Shown here: piece after piece, positions 21,492 through 60,320 of the stretch
Layout of the letters: every line of letters starts with the position of its first letter
Numbering within the stretch: position 1 is the stretch's first letter
NCBI RefSeq assembly: GCF_030814475.1
Contig: NZ_JAUSVF010000002.1
Location: 620,001-684,000 of the forward strand
From: Pararhizobium capsulatum DSM 1112
GTDB taxonomy: Bacteria > Pseudomonadota > Alphaproteobacteria > Rhizobiales > Rhizobiaceae
Direction of reading: 5' to 3'
DNA: 64,000 nucleotides
Translations under genes and position numbers: made by a program
Notes under the pieces: generated by a model
Databases searched by the model: none
Told to the model about the DNA's origin: nothing
The model's input: the letters and a program-made list of their open reading frames with translations, nothing else

Positions 21492-22052
21492 CTACTTCTC
21501 TGTCTTGCCGACGAAATCGGCAGCATTTTTGTATTTGACGGTCTGGATATGCTCGCAGTAGAGCACCAGTTCGCCTTCGTTCTTGAAGACTTCGTAGCTC
21601 GCGCGGATGAGGCCGAGTTCGGCATAGCGCGGGCGTTTGTCGAGGTTGGTGCGGATCGTGTAGATCGTATCACCTATGAAGACAGGCTTTATGAATCGAA
21701 GCTTGTCATAGCCATAGGAAAAGGCATTGACGCAGTTGGTCGCAACAAGCCCCAGTCCCGCGGAAAACACGAAAGCACCGGCGATAAGCCTGCGGCCGAA
21801 AATGCCCTCGGTTTCCGCAAACATCTGGTCCTGCACATAAGGATGAATGTCGGTGACCAGAGTGTTGAACAGATGGCTGTCGCTTTCGCCGATTGTACGG
21901 CGCAAAGACCTGATTTTCTGGCCGACCGGCCAATCTTCATAGAACCAGTTTTCAGCATTCCATACCGGCAAAGCCGCATGATCTTCCGGCATCGTCTTGG
22001 GATGCGTCGAAGACACTCCAACCGTCGGGGGAAACTCACCCACGTCCTGCAT
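21492..22052 (-). CDS. MaoC-like (R)-hydratase / mesaconyl-CoA-hydratase-like protein
   Basis: 186 residues with a single hot-dog fold. [20 protein letters not shown] corresponds to the catalytic Asp/His segment of MaoC hydratases, followed by [20 protein letters not shown] chose the ATG at 22052 because GGAGG lies 8 nt upstream; the frame extends to a TTG at 22085 without support. It is the first gene of the MaoC - CoA-transferase - binding-protein-like operon and has an inverted repeat about 100 bp upstream. Expected reaction: addition or removal of water across an enoyl-CoA double bond. Confidence 0.85.
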
Positions 22053-24001: not shown

Positions 24002-25189
24002 ATGCGGCAAGGATGGAGATGGTTCGGCCCTTATACACCGGTAACTCTCGAGGACGTTCGCCAGACCGGTGCAACCAATATCGTCTCGTCGCTGCATCGC
24101 ATTCCGATCGGGCAGGCCTGGACCGAACTCGAGGTGCGCGACCATCAGGCCTTGATCGAGACGACACCACCGGGCCGCACGCCGCTCACATGGTCCGTCG
24201 TGGAAAGCATCCCGATCCCGGATGCCGTCAAGCGCAGGGGTGGCGCGGCCAAAGTCGAGATCGAGGCCTGGATCGCCAGCCTCGAAGCCGTTGCCGCCTG
24301 CGGCATCGACATCATCTGCTACAATTTCATGCCGGTCGTCGACTGGACGCGCACCGAGATCGACTTCATCACGCCGACGGGCGCCACCGCCATGCGCTTC
24401 GATCACGATCGCTTCGCCGCCTTTGATCTCTTTGTCCTGAAACGTCCGAGCGCGGAGAAGGACTATTCGGAGAACGAACGCATCCGCGCCCGCGAAAGCT
24501 TCGAAAACACACCGCCGGAGGAAGTGGCAGAGGTCGCCCGGATCATCACATCCGCCCTGCCGGGCTCCACCACGGAACCCCTGACGATTGAAGCCTTTCG
24601 CGAAAAGCTCGCTGCCTATAGCGGCATTGACGCGCCACAGCTTCGCCAGCATCTGATCGAATTTCTGGAAGCCGTGACACCCGCCGCCGAAGCGCGCGGC
24701 GTCAAGCTGACGCTCCACCCCGACGATCCGCCGCGACCGCTCTTCGGCCTGCCGCGTGTCGCCTCGACGCAAGAAGACTACGCCGCCCTGTTCGACGCAG
24801 TCCCCTCGCCCGCCAATGGAATGTGCTATTGCACGGGCAGTCTCGGCGTCCGTGCCGACAATGATCTCCCGGCCATCGCCCGCCGCTTCGCCTCGCGCAT
24901 CCATTTCGCCCATCTGCGCGCGACGACCCGCGAGCGGGATGGCCTGAGCTTCCAAGAGGCCGCCCACCTCGAAGGCGATGTCGATATGGTTTCCGTGCTG
25001 AAAGAACTGGTGGCGGAAGACCGCAAACGAACGTCGAAAAACACCATCGTCTTCCGTTCCGATCATGGTCATCGCATGCTGGATGACCTGAATAAGACTG
25101 TGACGCCCGGGTATCCCGCCATCGGCAGAATGCGCGGCCTTGCAGAACTTCGCGGCATCCTCTTTGCCCTCGGCGCTCCGCCGACCTGA
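24002..25189 (+). CDS. uxuA: mannonate dehydratase
   Basis: 395 residues, the usual UxuA length. It dehydrates D-mannonate to 2-keto-3-deoxy-D-gluconate using Mn or Fe. The N-terminus MRQGWRWFGPYTPVTLEDVRQTGATNIVSSLHRIP is diagnostic, as are YNFMPVVDWTRTEIDF, the LHPDDPP motif and the C-terminal FRSDHGHRMLDD. I chose the ATG at 24002 because TGGGAGG lies 6 nt upstream. It is divergent from uxuB and precedes the LacI-ABC-GH127 operon by 174 bp. Confidence 0.96.
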   Translation: MRQGWRWFGPYTPVTLEDVRQTGATNIVSSLHRIPIGQAWTELEVRDHQALIETTPPGRTPLTWSVVESIPIPDAVKRRGGAAKVEIEAWIASLEAVAACGIDIICYNFMPVVDWTRTEIDFITPTGATAMRFDHDRFAAFDLFVLKRPSAEKDYSENERIRARESFENTPPEEVAEVARIITSALPGSTTEPLTIEAFREKLAAYSGIDAPQLRQHLIEFLEAVTPAAEARGVKLTLHPDDPPRPLFGLPRVASTQEDYAALFDAVPSPANGMCYCTGSLGVRADNDLPAIARRFASRIHFAHLRATTRERDGLSFQEAAHLEGDVDMVSVLKELVAEDRKRTSKNTIVFRSDHGHRMLDDLNKTVTPGYPAIGRMRGLAELRGILFALGAPPT

Positions 25190-25342: not shown

Positions 25343-25363
25343 TCGCAGCTGTGGGAGGCGACA

Positions 25364-36691: not shown

Positions 36692-36887
36692 TCAACCAAG
36701 CATCGGGCCCGCTCTTGCAGTAAACAGGATGAGCGAGACAGCTCCGATTGCTGCGAAGAAGACCATCCCGAAATCGTATTGCTTTGAAAGGCTCGTGAGC
36801 CGGGCCGAATGCTGGGCATAGCGCAATTGCCTTGCTAACTTTCGCTTTTCGGATGCCAGTTGATCGCGCTTGAATTGCAGTTGTCAT
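36692..36887 (-). pseudogene. small coiled-coil/membrane protein gene, apparently frameshifted
   Basis: The ATG at 36887 overlaps the scpB stop (ATGA), a normal coupled start, but its frame soon reads low-quality sequence. The frame that continues in phase with scpB after its TGA reads as a credible protein: a charged helix (KRDQLASEKRKLARQLRYAQ), then GMVFFAAIGAVSLILFTA as a membrane segment, stopping at 36692. A one-base shift within the first ten codons would join the two. So this is either a recent frameshift pseudogene, a sequencing error, or a frameshift/CTG-initiated gene. No family recognised. Confidence 0.4.
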
Positions 36888-37579
36888 TCTTCCATTTCAT
36901 CCGAAGTCGAATCCTCGACCTCATCCGGCTGCGCCATGTCATGCCTACTGAGCAGGCCGGCATCTTCCAGCATTTCCATGTTCGGCAGGTCCCGCAGCGT
37001 ATCGAAACCGAAGGATGCCAGGAAATGCGGGGTCGTCACGAAGGTGTAGGGCGCTCCCGGCGTGGGGCTGCGGGGGCCGGAGGCAAGAAAACCGGCCTCG
37101 CGAAGGCCTGCCATTGTGTCGCGGCTGACCTCCTTGCCGAAAATCTTCGTGAGCTCCGTTCGGGTTACCGGCTGGAAATAGCCAACCGTCATCAGGACGG
37201 CCGCCTCGTGATCCGACAGGCTCGCGGAAATATGGCGGGTCGGCGCAGCTGATGCGCGGATCGCCTGGCCATAAACCAGACGCGTGCGATGCTGCCAGCC
37301 GCTCGCGACCGAAACAATGTCGTAAGGCCGATTGCGCAGCTCTTCCCGGAGGTCGTCCACGAGAAGGTCGATACTACAATCCTTACCAACTACACGCGCC
37401 AGCACTTCGCGGCTGACCGGCTCCCTGGAGGCAAAGATCACCGCCTCGACCCGCATCATCCATTCGCGCCAGCGCAGATCGGGCGGCAAATCTTCCAGAT
37501 CACGATCGAGAAGAACTTCGCTGTCTGCCCGCTGCTGTCGCTTGCGGTTTTCCATACGCGCTGTGCCGGGTGCAGCCAT
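36884..37579 (-). CDS. scpB: ScpB-family (SMC-associated kleisin partner) protein
   Basis: 231 residues with two winged-helix domains: WMMRVEAVIFASREPVSREVLARVVGK and ASLSDHEAAVLMTVGYFQPVTRTELTKIFGKEVSRDTMAGLREAGFL, then FVTTPHFLASFGFDTLRDLP, the ScpB hallmark. Canonical ScpB binds the kleisin ScpA in the SMC condensin. No scpA or smc is nearby; the partner is a DUF1403 gene ending 2 bp upstream. It is therefore probably a ScpB paralogue with its own role, and not the housekeeping copy. Confidence 0.82.
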   Translation of the reverse strand: MAAPGTARMENRKRQQRADSEVLLDRDLEDLPPDLRWREWMMRVEAVIFASREPVSREVLARVVGKDCSIDLLVDDLREELRNRPYDIVSVASGWQHRTRLVYGQAIRASAAPTRHISASLSDHEAAVLMTVGYFQPVTRTELTKIFGKEVSRDTMAGLREAGFLASGPRSPTPGAPYTFVTTPHFLASFGFDTLRDLPNMEMLEDAGLLSRHDMAQPDEVEDSTSDEMEE

Positions 37580-37581
37580 CG

Positions 37582-38535
37582 TTACAGCCCAAAAATACGA
37601 AAGCTTTGACGGCCGGAGAGCTCACGCACGCCACCCAGGCTTTCCAGCCGCTCGAAAAGCCGCCTGCTCGCCCATCGCGACAGATTGGTACCCGGTGCCG
37701 AAACCACCACCGCATCGTCATCGAGAAGCTGGCGGATCACGGCGGAGGCGCCCTTGGTCCGCACCTTTCCAGACACTTTGAGCATATGATCGGCGCGTCG
37801 CTCAATTTCGCCGGCCATGCGCAGGGCCTCGCTTGTCCCTTGGGCCAAGGCGATGCAGACGGCGCGGTGAAAGCCGTCATCCCCCGGGAGCATGCGCCCG
37901 CGCCCACCAATCGTGCGGAAGGCCGGCCCATAGCGTTCCGCCATCAACAACGGCACGGGGCGCGGCCATCGCAGTTTCTGCGCCAGCACCCAGTCCGCAA
38001 GCCACCACGCCAAAACCTCTGCGTCGGGGCGGAGAGTGACAATCCGGGTAGCAAGATCAGCAACGATGAATGGAGCCGCCCTGTTGGCCTGCAGCAGATC
38101 GTCGACAAGGCTTGGAATATCCGCGAGCAGTTCATCCCAACCCACAGACAGAAGCGTGCAGAGTTCGCGCAGGGTTTTCGTATCGATTACCCGCGTTCCG
38201 CCGGCAAGTCGTCGATACGCCACTAGCACACTGCCCGCGGGTCCTGGACTGTCTCCCGGTGACGTCAGAAGCACCGCATCCCGCAGGGCGGCCTCTTCCT
38301 CGTTCCAGCCGAGCAGCTTGACGGCCGATACGGCACATTTCAGGGTAAGACGCTGGCGCCAGCACCCGGCCCAGATAGGGTCGGAGCGAACAAGACCATC
38401 CAGCAGACCCAGCGCACAGCCGGCGGCAAAGGCCGCGTCGGCCTCGGTGGTCACTCCACCACGCGGCAAGGCCCATCCAGGGATGAGCAAGGACGGCGGC
38501 ACGGCGGATGAATTTGAGGAAACAAGCGATTCCAT
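37582..38535 (-). CDS. DUF1403 family protein
   Basis: 317 residues from the ATG at 38535; the frame stays open to 38622 and I see no ribosome site at either point, so the start is uncertain. Conserved stretches include PGWALPRGG, EADAAFAAGCALGLLDGLVRS, EEEAALRDAVLLTSPGDSPGPAG and the late KGASAVIRQLLDDDAVV. Composition suggests an all-helical soluble protein. Function unknown. It is followed by scpB after 2 bp, a pairing I know from other rhizobial genomes, so the two probably act together. Confidence 0.75.
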   Translation of the reverse strand: MESLVSSNSSAVPPSLLIPGWALPRGGVTTEADAAFAAGCALGLLDGLVRSDPIWAGCWRQRLTLKCAVSAVKLLGWNEEEAALRDAVLLTSPGDSPGPAGSVLVAYRRLAGGTRVIDTKTLRELCTLLSVGWDELLADIPSLVDDLLQANRAAPFIVADLATRIVTLRPDAEVLAWWLADWVLAQKLRWPRPVPLLMAERYGPAFRTIGGRGRMLPGDDGFHRAVCIALAQGTSEALRMAGEIERRADHMLKVSGKVRTKGASAVIRQLLDDDAVVVSAPGTNLSRWASRRLFERLESLGGVRELSGRQSFRIFGL

Positions 38536-38670
38536 CGGCGCAGCATAGATGACCGGGGCGCTATCGCCTACAATCTCTAGTAAAACCGCACAGAATATTG
38601 ATGACTGCGGGACATGCTTCAAACGCCCCCGCCGCTTCGCTCAAATCGACAGGGAAGCCTCCAGAAACGA

Positions 38671-38706
38671 AAAAGCCCGCCGCGGGAGGAGGTGCGGCAG
38701 GCTTTT
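38671..38706 (-). ncRNA. cuckoo/CcsR-type sRNA hairpin 4 with terminator
   Basis: Last hairpin of the minus-strand array: a 13-bp stem (38706-38694 with 38683-38671, one G-U pair) whose loop exposes CCTCCTCCC (38692-38684), followed by a U5 tail at 38674-38670. It is both a CCUCCUCCC hairpin and the Rho-independent end of the array. Confidence 0.75.
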
Positions 38707-38717
38707 CCAAAAGAACC

Positions 38718-38750
38718 GAGCAGCGACTGGGAGGAGGAGTGCCGCCGCTC
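38718..38750 (-). ncRNA. cuckoo/CcsR-type sRNA hairpin 3
   Basis: 8-bp stem (38750-38743 with 38725-38718, one G-U pair) with CCTCCTCCC (38737-38729) in the loop. Third of four tandem copies on the minus strand. Confidence 0.7.
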
Positions 38751-38753
38751 CTA

Positions 38754-38786
38754 CAGACACCCCTGGGAGGAGGAGCGGGGCGTCTG
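38754..38786 (-). ncRNA. cuckoo/CcsR-type sRNA hairpin 2
   Basis: Stem CAGAC plus CCCC against GGGG plus GTCTG (38786-38778 region with 38762-38754), loop carrying CCTCCTCCC (38773-38765). The stem sequences differ from the other copies while the loop is identical, as expected for a structural RNA family. Confidence 0.72.
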
Positions 38787-38792
38787 AAACAC

Positions 38793-38822
38793 GAAGCTCT
38801 GCGGGAGGAGGTGCATTGCTTC
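38793..38822 (-). ncRNA. cuckoo/CcsR-type sRNA hairpin 1
   Basis: First hairpin of the array: GAAGC (38822-38818) pairs with GCTTC (38797-38793), an inner TGC/GCA adds to the stem, and CCTCCTCCC (38811-38803) is in the loop. The CCUCCUCCC loop is complementary to Shine-Dalgarno-like sequences. The DUF1127 gene lies upstream on the same strand. Confidence 0.72.
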
Positions 38823-38955
38823 GATAAAAATCATCATACACTGACGGCGCTTATTTGATAGGCATTATGTTGCAGTGCAGCTATGCACAAAACGCAGATC
38901 TTGTAGGCAGGCTTTGGTTTCCCGTGCGGCACCGGGGTTTCAGCCCCCAGAACGC

Positions 38956-38980
38956 AAAAACGCCCGCGAAACAGCGGGCG
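38956..38980 (-). terminator. terminator between DUF1127 gene and sRNA array
   Basis: On the minus strand a perfect 7-bp stem CGCCCGC/GCGGGCG (38980-38974 and 38967-38961) is followed by T5 (38960-38956). It ends the DUF1127 message 29 bp past the stop; the array below needs read-through or its own promoter. A weak candidate (TTTTGT, 17 nt, CATAAT on the minus strand) lies at about 38851-38892. Confidence 0.7.
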
Positions 38981-39008
38981 TCTGCAACAGCATTGAGAGG
39001 TGCTGGTA

Positions 39009-39155
39009 TTAACGAGCGATCGAGGCGCGAGCCACGCTGCGGATGTCTGCCCGGTCGATACCGAGGTCCTGCAGTTCGCGGTTGGTCATCCGGCCGAGTT
39101 CGCTAATCGTCTGACGATACTTGCGCCAGTTGTTCAGTGCACGTGTTACGTTCAT
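39009..39155 (-). CDS. DUF1127 small basic protein (CcaF1-like)
   Basis: 48-residue arginine-rich protein: WRKYRQTISELGRMTNRELQDLGIDRADIRSVARASIAR is a complete DUF1127 domain. I chose the ATG at 39155 with AAAGGGGA upstream; the frame beyond it is not conserved. In Rhodobacter the DUF1127 protein CcaF1 is encoded directly upstream of the CcsR sRNAs and acts as an RNA-binding protein in sRNA maturation and turnover. The same order is seen here, so an RNA chaperone role linked to the hairpin array is a reasonable inference. Confidence 0.88.
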   Translation of the reverse strand: MNVTRALNNWRKYRQTISELGRMTNRELQDLGIDRADIRSVARASIAR

Positions 39156-39310
39156 GATAAATCCCCTTTCCTGAGGCAGTCCCGACGTCAGCACCCTGTG
39201 CGCTCCCGTCGTTTTCATGAGGGGAATATAATCGGTTGAACGTCGAACAAACAGCGCCAAAGCGTCAGGTCACCCATGCACGCAATGCAAGGGTCGCGTA
39301 AAAGAATCAC

Positions 39311-39565
39311 CTAAAGGAAGGCCAATTCCTTCAGCAGGGCATCGATTCGCTCCGGCAAGGCATGGTCATTCATGAACATATGCCGCAGCTGCGTGCGATC
39401 GCTGACGCCCGACTGGTACCAAGAGATCAGGCCAACGGCGACCTGATTTGCTTCTTCGCTGCGGATATCCGCACCGTTTTCGGCGCACCACGCTTCGAGG
39501 AACCTCTGTAGAAGATGGAGATCGTCAGCTTCGAGCGGAAGATCGGACTGAAAGGAAGCGTGCAT
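39311..39565 (-). CDS. small conserved-looking protein of unknown function
   Basis: 84-residue acidic helical protein (LEADDLHLLQRFLEAWCAENGADIRSEEANQVAVGLISWYQSGVSDRTQL, then LPERIDALLKELAFL). I chose the ATG at 39565 with AAGAGGG 6 nt upstream; earlier in-frame ATGs are unsupported. No recognised domain. An inverted repeat TTGCGC-N5-GCGCAA (39579-39595) lies just upstream and may be an operator or a leader hairpin covering the ribosome site. Confidence 0.65.
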   Translation of the reverse strand: MHASFQSDLPLEADDLHLLQRFLEAWCAENGADIRSEEANQVAVGLISWYQSGVSDRTQLRHMFMNDHALPERIDALLKELAFL

Positions 39566-53176: not shown

Positions 53177-54148
53177 ATGAAAATTGCCAAAATGCTGTGC
53201 CTGGCTGTGGGCGTTGCGCTCAGCGCCGTATCCGTGCATGCCCAGGAGATCACACTCCGCTCAGCCGACATCCACCCGGACGGTTATCCGACAGTCGATG
53301 CCGTCAAGTATATGGGTGAACTCGTCTCCCAGCGCACCAATGGCCGCATCAAGATCGAGGTCCAGAACAACGGTACACTCGGCAACGAGAAGGATACGAT
53401 CGAGCAGACCCGCTTCGGCGTCATCGACATGAACCGCGTCAATGCGGCGCCGTTCAACAACCTGATCCCGGAGACTGTCGTTCTCGGTCTGCCCTTCCTG
53501 TTCCGTTCGACCGAACACATGCACAACACGGTCGACGGCCCGATCGGCGACGAAATCCTTGCGGCTTTCGAGCCGCACGGCCTGATCGGCCTCGCATACT
53601 ACGATTCCGGCGCCCGCTCCTTCTATTCCAAGAAGCCTATCGAGAAGCTGGCAGATCTCAAGGGCATGAAGGTGCGCGTGCAGCAGTCCGATCTCTGGAT
53701 CGCCATGATGGAAGCCTTCGGCGCCAATCCGACACCGATGCCGATGGGTGAAGTCTATTCGTCGCTCGAAACCGGCGTCGTCGATGCGGCCGAAAACAAC
53801 TGGCCGTCCTACGAATCCGCCCGCCACTTCGAAATCGCTAAGAATTACACGCTGACCCAACACTCGATGAACCCGGAAATTCTGGTCATTTCCAAGATCA
53901 GCTGGGACAAGCTGAGCCCTGATGATCAGAAGGTCCTGAAGGAAGCGGCCAAGGAATCGGTCGTCAAGATGCGTGAACTCTGGAGCGCCCGTGAAAAAAG
54001 CTCCGAGGAGAAGGTTCGCGCCGCTGGCGTCAATGTCATCACTGTCGACAAGGCCGAATTTTCGGACGCGATGAAGCCGGTCTATGACAAATTCATCACC
54101 GATCCGAAGATGAAAGACCTGCTCGAGCGCATCCGCGCTACCAAATAA
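53177..54148 (+). CDS. TRAP transporter substrate-binding protein DctP
   Basis: 323 residues with a Sec signal peptide ([24 protein letters not shown], cleavage after HA). The DctP fold is shown by [83 protein letters not shown], with the conserved Arg that binds a carboxylate. AAAGGAGGAGG precedes the ATG. In this locus the ligand is probably D-galacturonate or D-glucuronate. A strong hairpin follows. Confidence 0.93.
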
Positions 54149-59198: not shown

Positions 59199-60320
59199 GT
59201 GAAATACCACAGAAAGGCTGTCGCTGCGGCAGCCCTGAGCCTTTGCACGTTCACAGCCTTGTCGGGCAGCATGGCCTATGCCGAAGACACCTATCGCCCT
59301 GAATGCTTTTCGTCGGCGCCGGACAATGCCAAGGTCATCAAGTACGAAAAGCGCGACGGCCCCTACAAGATCGCCTTCGTCAACGGCTTTGCCGGCAACG
59401 ACTGGCGTGTGACCGCAATCCAGGGGGCCAAGGCCTGGGCCGCGCGGCCTGATAACAAGGCCAAGCTTTCCGAATTCACCGTCGTTTCCGTCGGTAACGA
59501 TAGCGCGGCCCAGATCGCTGCCATCGATAATTTTATCGCGGCCGGCTATGACGGCATCAGCTTCATCGCCGTGAACCCGACGGCCTTCAAGGCCGTGATC
59601 AAACGCGCCGAACAGGCCGGAACCGTGCTCGTTCCCTTCGACAACGTGCTGGACACGGACCAGATCGTGCAGGTCAACGAAAACCAGTTCGAACTCGGCA
59701 AGATGAAGGCACAGGCAGTCATTGACGGCATCAAGAAGGCCAAGGGCAAGGTCGAAGGCACTGTGCTTGAAGTCTCCGGCCTGCCGGGCAACGCGACCGA
59801 CCGTGACAACCACGAAGGCATGCGCTCGGTTCTCGATGCCGAAGCCGGCCTGAAGGTCGTCCAGGTCGTCGGCAACTGGGATGCCGGCACGGTGCAGAAG
59901 GTGACGGCGGATGCGATCGCCACCAACGGCCAGTTCGATGGCGTGATGGTTCAGGAAGGCTCGATCGGCGCGCTCAACGCCATGAAGAATGCCGGCCACC
60001 CGGTCGTGCCCTTCGGCGGCGATGCGGGCAACGGCACCCGCAGGCTGCTCGCAGAAGGCAAGTATCCGGGCGTAACCGCTGCCCAGGCACCGGTCATGTC
60101 TTCGATCTCGCTCGAAGCGATCGTCTCGCTGCTGGAGGGCAACGCCCTGCCGCAAAAGATCTTCCTGCCGATCCCGAGCAAGGACAATGCGGAACTCAAG
60201 GAAGGCACCGACTTCTTCCCGAAGCTGCCTGACACCTTCTACACGGCCACGGGCTATCCGAATTGCTTCCCGGTCTTCTCGCCGGATGAGCTGCTTGGCC
60301 AGACCCCGGACAATACGTAA
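59199..60320 (+). CDS. ABC transporter substrate-binding protein (ribose/RbsB type)
   Basis: 373 residues of the periplasmic-binding-protein type I fold. The Sec signal runs to about AYA (KYHRKAVAAAALSLCTFTALSGSMAYAED). The mature part has YKIAFVNGFAGNDWRVTAIQGAKAW, DNFIAAGYDGISFIAVNPTAF and NHEGMRSVLDAEAGLKVVQVVGNW. The start is GTG 59199 with GGGAGG 8 nt upstream. In this locus the likely ligand is a tetronate (erythronate, threonate) or the matching tetritol. Confidence 0.92.
   Translation: MKYHRKAVAAAALSLCTFTALSGSMAYAEDTYRPECFSSAPDNAKVIKYEKRDGPYKIAFVNGFAGNDWRVTAIQGAKAWAARPDNKAKLSEFTVVSVGNDSAAQIAAIDNFIAAGYDGISFIAVNPTAFKAVIKRAEQAGTVLVPFDNVLDTDQIVQVNENQFELGKMKAQAVIDGIKKAKGKVEGTVLEVSGLPGNATDRDNHEGMRSVLDAEAGLKVVQVVGNWDAGTVQKVTADAIATNGQFDGVMVQEGSIGALNAMKNAGHPVVPFGGDAGNGTRRLLAEGKYPGVTAAQAPVMSSISLEAIVSLLEGNALPQKIFLPIPSKDNAELKEGTDFFPKLPDTFYTATGYPNCFPVFSPDELLGQTPDNT

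Follow-up and report, generated by a model that had tools for sequence, protein, structure and literature searches.

Cuckoo RNAs are reportedly defined as a family by a thermodynamic matcher. In Rhodobacter, ccaF1 and CcsR1-4 are transcribed from one RpoHI/RpoHII promoter into one precursor that is matured by RNase E (PMC10253847, PMC8307010), and the association of a DUF1127 gene with CcsR-like RNAs is called CIN1, for which the cuckoo RNA paper is cited (PMC10253847). RS0680a, an RNA of R. sphaeroides, has two stem-loops, and the broken-up gene order of these families is already known (PMC3927594). In S. meliloti, the ar14 RNA NfeR1 has three hairpins, whose loops act redundantly on the ribosome-binding sites of transporter mRNAs, and it represses ntrB (PMC10746234, PMC7143759, PMC8844928). 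NfeR1 is reportedly activated by LsrB (PMC10746234). A further family model of S. meliloti, SmelA099, is described with four hairpins and 160 nt.

The box of the regulator VtlR/LsrB, GCAT-N3-TG-N3-T, was published for Brucella abortus and Agrobacterium (PMC7486931), and it lies at −61 to −49 in the abcR1 promoter of S. meliloti (PMC8844928). The gene order in A. tumefaciens is vtlR/lsrB followed by abcR1-abcR2, and a consensus scan reported for that species gave only one further LsrB/VtlR site (PMC7486931). In Brucella, VtlR is described as the activator of three DUF1127 genes and AbcR2 (PMC12595884). Among the DUF1127 proteins, Rhodobacter CcaF1 is described as binding RNA, no evidence for RNA binding is reported for Salmonella YjiS, and small Agrobacterium members act on the kinase PhoR (PMC12501420).

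We analyzed a 64-kb stretch of DNA (the window), which is part of a 1.05-Mb contig in the 6.48-Mb genome of Pararhizobium capsulatum DSM 1112. The motif CCTCCTCCC occurs there four times, at 38803-38811, 38765-38773, 38729-38737 and 38684-38692, all on the minus strand and none elsewhere in the window. Shuffled windows contained 0.69 copies on average, and four or more anywhere in 1 of 100. The minus-strand sequence 38668-38826 folds into four hairpins with every motif unpaired in a loop, at −74.8 kcal/mol (z −7.0; none of 200 shuffles was equally stable). Hairpin 1 spans 38792..38823, hairpin 2 38754..38786, hairpin 3 38718..38750 and hairpin 4 38671..38706, the last continuing into TTTTT, so that it can serve as a terminator too. 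An earlier note, made from the sequence alone, had described four motif copies 36-45 nt apart on the minus strand, each in the loop of a separate stem, with the last stem ending in a U-run. This description was borne out, with start-to-start spacings of 38, 36 and 45 nt and stem coordinates correct within 1-2 bases. The ar14 match described below and the fold together predict a four-loop anti-Shine-Dalgarno sRNA of about 157 nt (38669..38826, minus), whose ends we infer. Downstream on the same strand follow a DUF1403 gene and a ScpB gene (36884-38529, minus).

To assign the array to a family, the window was searched with the covariance models of Rfam release 15, as the earlier note had suggested. 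The single match at the gathering threshold was ar14 (RF02344), at 38792-38668 on the minus strand, with 104.7 bits against a cut-off of 58.8; no match to ar15 (AbcR, RF02345) reached the gathering cut-off anywhere in the window. As in ar14/NfeR1, CCUCCUCCC stands unpaired in the loops of consecutive hairpins whose stems vary yet still pair, ending in a terminal hairpin. Because the ar14 model has three hairpins, hairpin 1 of the four is extra, and the array is therefore probably of the type with four hairpins that is known from S. meliloti as SmelA099, which by description it resembles in its four consecutive anti-Shine-Dalgarno hairpins and its predicted length. The four-hairpin array on S. 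meliloti psymA (L145) is probably SmelA099 itself. We conclude that the array is a real, conserved and well-formed member of a known sRNA family.

A 48-aa DUF1127 gene (39009..39155, minus; PF06568, E 5e-15) stands upstream of the array in the open reading frame list, in agreement with the earlier note. The locus thus shares with CIN1 and with Rhodobacter sphaeroides ccaF1-CcsR1-4 a short DUF1127 gene adjoining CcsR-like RNAs with anti-Shine-Dalgarno loops. It differs from the latter in that a terminator separates the genes and a second promoter element is present, so that, judged from the sequence, the single transcript without a separate RNA promoter that marks the ccaF1-CcsR operon is not predicted here. 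The label of a cuckoo/CcsR array given in the earlier note was right as to the kind of RNA, an ar14 family member, and its DUF1127 neighbour; its nearest relatives, however, are ar14/NfeR1 and SmelA099, not CcsR1-4, which are cut from the ccaF1 co-transcript.

The genome holds five ar14 loci. Two arrays on the window's contig share the plan of DUF1127 gene, terminator and four hairpins; two tandem three-hairpin arrays on the largest contig directly precede DUF1127 genes; and the fifth locus, a solitary array of three hairpins, is NfeR1-like. DUF1127 genes were located by HMM, since a regular expression had missed most of them, and four of the six matches (five above the cut-off) adjoin arrays by position. 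Across 61 genomes, this one included, ar14 was found at E 0.001 in 45 and above the cut-off in 37. Among the matches listed, we examined 117 loci (L001-L037, L057-L136), only four of them from outside the genus; they resolved into 135 distinct arrays, of which 56 have four motifs, 73 three and 6 two. A DUF1127 stop codon lies 177-207 nt upstream on the same strand of 22 of the 56 four-motif arrays (linked modules), 4 precede a DUF1127 gene, and 30 have no DUF1127 gene within the stretch searched, about 870 nt or more on each side (solitary arrays). Array and DUF1127 gene are therefore often together yet separable. In a plasmid collection, the module region matched 585 records, 223 of them covering at least 80% of the query, and the gene neighbours differ among the three DUF1127-bearing annotated plasmid records that were opened.

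Whether the stems carry compensatory changes, whose lack in related genomes the earlier note had named as evidence against the array, was determined with the 22 linked and 30 solitary four-hairpin arrays, 52 in all; the four preceding DUF1127 were omitted. Twenty pairs changed on both sides, against a mean of 7.7 after shuffling and 3-10 in slid controls, and 89 cells carried both-sided changes, against 22 and 12-40; because of common ancestry the 52 arrays are not independent cases, and the shuffles ignore kinship. Paired cells under the window structure made up 92.2% (89.5% after shuffling), a percentage that leans towards that structure because it derives from one of these sequences. Hairpin 3 accounted for seven covarying pairs out of ten. 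Hairpin 2 also showed both-sided changes, in a region that MAFFT misaligns between the linked and solitary groups (70.8% paired), and the nearly invariant hairpins 1 and 4 say little because they hardly vary. RNAalifold recovered hairpins 1, 3 and 4 from the 52-row alignment and lost the misaligned hairpin 2; the hairpins were therefore also folded singly. In 290 of 292 such folds, taken from linked-upstream and solitary arrays with three or four motifs, the loop enclosed the entire motif and was closed by a stem of five or more pairs, compared with 19% for shuffled arms. The stem of the last hairpin (GCCTGCCGC...GCGGCAGGC, window 38671-38706; L002) is nearly invariant among four-hairpin arrays and identical in the NfeR1-like three-hairpin array of the same genome, while the other stems vary freely; gene conversion and an additional constraint are alternative explanations.

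To find signals that might drive the array, we scrutinized the upstream regions of the 52 arrays. By eye, they share an element that resembles TGCATRGCTGC..TGCA and, close to the first hairpin, a TAT-rich hexamer; the sequence upstream of the element looks dissimilar. In the window, the element contains a putative LsrB/VtlR-type box, GCATAGCTGCACT (38874..38886, minus), a consensus match at about −60 to −48 from the predicted start (~38826). A −10-like TATGAT (38833..38838, minus) was read from the sequence and from the upstream regions of relatives. No −35 consensus is visible at this promoter, and a simple consensus scan of 38600-39400 listed no sigma-70 promoter. Among the four-hairpin arrays, 21 of the 22 linked and 28 of the 30 solitary ones (49/52) carry the box at a distance of 75-77 nt upstream of the first motif. 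It was present within the tested interval of 40-110 nt in 50 of the 56 four-motif arrays, among them one of the four that precede DUF1127, at 80 nt. The box turned up in 2-3% of shuffled regions, and none of the 52 arrays had it 150-220 nt upstream. Taken by itself, the pattern carries little weight, since the whole window has 13 exact boxes where 10 are expected by chance; the evidence lies in its fixed place in relatives. Its strict form, GCATNGCTGCNNTGC, has five matches in the genome, of which two belong to four-hairpin arrays, two lie inside long reading frames and the fifth seems intergenic.

The box also separates the window type from NfeR1-like arrays, as none of 26 solitary three-hairpin arrays had an exact box in the 40-110 nt interval; four of these 26 had one at 167-169 nt, inside the control interval. 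Three-hairpin arrays before DUF1127 had it in the tested interval in 6 of 45 cases, at 81-83 nt; the box test was confined to these, the solitary arrays and the four-motif arrays, leaving aside two three-hairpin arrays downstream of DUF1127 and six with two motifs. At least 127 of 247 genomes of the family have a box 60-66 nt before CTCCTCCC, counting pattern-only matches of which several look like chance. The same combined pattern occurred in 19 of 249 drawn from the order (9 of 10 family members and 10 of 239 others), and read backwards it was absent among the matches listed. At loci on named plasmids, the box lies at 75-76 nt in 8 of 12: R. leguminosarum, P. qamdonense (L065), S. meliloti psymA and pSmeRU11c, S. 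medicae, A. tumefaciens pAt, Neorhizobium and Ensifer. Sinorhizobium C101 has it 149 nt before the first counted motif, which is there the third repeat, and R. etli Mim1 has a one-letter variant; within these 12 loci it is absent at the Shinella array and at a three-hairpin S. meliloti array. We found no report of an LsrB box before four-hairpin arrays in the open-licence literature, and an earlier report may exist.

The DUF1127 gene carries signals of the same kind. A second putative LsrB/VtlR-type box, GCATGGGTGACCT (39267..39279, minus), matches GCAT-N3-TG-N3-T exactly 124 nt before the DUF1127 ATG, and a −10-like TATATT was read at 39225..39230 (minus). The linked modules show, by eye, a similar hexamer at an equal position. 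Eleven of the 22 modules have an exact box 124-127 nt before the DUF1127 start; ten have a one-letter variant at about the same position by eye, which alone is weak evidence, and in one the start codon was not found. Upstream regions were readable for four of the six DUF1127 matches in the genome, with two exact boxes, one with a single mismatch and one without a box. Behind the gene lies an intrinsic terminator, CGCCCGC-TGTTTC-GCGGGCG-TTTTT (38956..38980, minus), which the earlier note had already read as a separate terminator. In 18 of the 22 linked modules, the spacer from DUF1127 to the array box contains a perfect GC stem of seven pairs with TTT behind it, compared with 0 of 1,100 shuffled spacers. 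A looser detector was dropped, being positive for all 22 linked spacers yet for 372 of 440 shuffles as well. The simple scan of 38600-39400 did not list the terminator at 38956-38980; we suspect that the stem it builds absorbs the T-run. The proposal in the earlier note that the array may have its own promoter is well supported by this separate terminator and by an upstream element that is conserved with or without DUF1127, which makes such a promoter probable. The element points to LsrB/VtlR, unlike the RpoHI/RpoHII promoter known in Rhodobacter.

A candidate for the regulator is encoded in the same genome. It has three matches to the AbcR family (ar15), and directly upstream of the first two, the abcR pair, lies a LysR-family gene (PF00126, PF03466). 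We presume this gene to be lsrB-like from the gene order. The first ar15 copy has, by eye, a one-letter variant of the box. The third ar15 RNA (L144; C3:54767-54876, minus, on a smaller contig) has an exact box, GCATAGCTGAGAT, upstream. AbcR1/AbcR2 belong to a separate RNA family from the window array; as described, they are similar to it in an LsrB-type box equally far from the start, in anti-Shine-Dalgarno seeds and in transporter targets.

On the basis of these results, we propose, with a probability of roughly 70%, that the DUF1127-cuckoo pair is two separately transcribed genes, each activated by LsrB/VtlR, that yield a four-loop anti-Shine-Dalgarno sRNA of about 157 nt and a DUF1127 protein. 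The sRNA would start at its own promoter (~38826) and end at the fourth hairpin (38669), with the LysR-type LsrB/VtlR activating it from the box at about −60 to −48. The DUF1127 gene would use its own box and terminator, so that both genes should rise together when LsrB is active. By analogy with NfeR1, we propose that the loops serve as interchangeable seeds that would pair with purine-rich ribosome-binding sites, above all those of transporter genes, and block translation of the target mRNAs; the DUF1127 protein may itself act on the RNA. Read from sequence, the arrangement is most likely one of parallel genes, unlike the co-transcribed and processed ccaF1-CcsR operon. Several observations weigh against this model: a −35 consensus was not seen, NfeR1-like solitary arrays have no exact box at 40-110 nt, the exact DUF1127 box is confined to 11 of 22 modules, and before one DUF1127 gene of this genome there is no box even when one mismatch is allowed.

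In a CcsR-type operon, transcription starting at the DUF1127 promoter would have to continue past the terminator, and RNase E, with help from the DUF1127 protein, would have to excise the hairpins. In its favour are the Rhodobacter precedent (PMC10253847, PMC8307010) and the same order of DUF1127 gene and anti-Shine-Dalgarno hairpins, within 198 nt on one strand. Such an operon is nevertheless improbable in view of the terminator found in 18 of 22 modules and of the upstream element that linked and solitary arrays share at the same distance. That the array stretch is coding sequence is hardly credible: open frames do overlap it on both strands in the mechanical listing, but pairing is conserved across the 52 arrays, and their spacings (34-40, 36-38 and 41-47 nt) vary by single bases, which breaks frames.

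Two further alternatives were weighed. Another LysR-type activator may act at the box of the array's own promoter, or a second factor may set the conditions, with LsrB binding only elsewhere. LysR-type boxes are short and alike, LsrB binding at the window box is a prediction, and AbcR levels are reported as unchanged in an lsrB deletion of S. meliloti despite the box (PMC7486931, PMC8844928). We consider this reading unlikely, although not negligible, because the box fits the LsrB/VtlR consensus and is spaced as in the abcR1 promoter, and because the genome has an lsrB-like gene beside abcR. The array may instead be a weakly or never expressed paralogue retained through recent duplication, as five ar14 loci are present in the genome and northern blots are reported to detect only 1 of 6 NfeR1-type copies in S. 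meliloti (PMC7143759). This too is improbable, as stems, box and −10-like hexamer are conserved in relatives and the sequence further upstream is not. From the unchanged AbcR levels and the single detected copy it follows that a box need not mean control and that a copy may be silent.

To look for possible targets, the loop complement was compared with the candidate starts of 133 mechanically listed frames, each 150 aa or longer. The longest match near a start, nine letters at the ribosome-binding site, was at 53177 (DctP binding protein), and matches of at least seven letters were found there and at 22052 (MaoC-like), 59199 (sugar-binding protein), 28695 (permease) and 26425 (binding protein). 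Transport genes account for four of these five and are numerous among the few proteins scanned. Such matches are no evidence of regulation, because any strong Shine-Dalgarno site scores well. Among the targets named in the earlier note, the binding protein at 59199 is one of the longest matches, whereas uxuA at 24002 has only six letters complementary to the loop; GGGAGG stands at 25353, beside its lacI.

As an RNA, the array adds one more copy to a family already described. The promoter finding is the added part; as a reading of sequence, it would extend to four-hairpin arrays and the adjoining DUF1127 genes the control by LsrB that is reported for NfeR1. It predicts that the many four-loop arrays of the Rhizobiaceae, with or without DUF1127, are direct LsrB/VtlR targets. 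If true, this would join the activation of NfeR1 by LsrB with that of DUF1127 genes and AbcR2 by Brucella VtlR, which were reported separately, and would explain why DUF1127 genes and cuckoo RNAs co-occur without needing a shared transcript. The wider idea, that the Rhizobiaceae pair is a portable two-gene LsrB/VtlR module through which a redox regulator switches both genes in parallel, besides AbcR, seems to us about evenly balanced. If it holds, the role of LsrB would largely be that of the master switch for anti-Shine-Dalgarno control, with the Rhodobacter operon as a different wiring of the same pair.

Box-like elements were also seen at arrays of other types. At L003/L006-L028, tandem pairs of three-hairpin arrays precede DUF1127 genes, and ATAGGTGCCATTC elements, mostly inexact relative to the consensus, recur upstream of the second array. 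Another class, present in many genera, has GCATRGGTGC..TGCA and later CATCTC..GGGCGCGTTC before CTCCTCCC (for example G147:C6:90551-90636), and is perhaps a further box-controlled array type.
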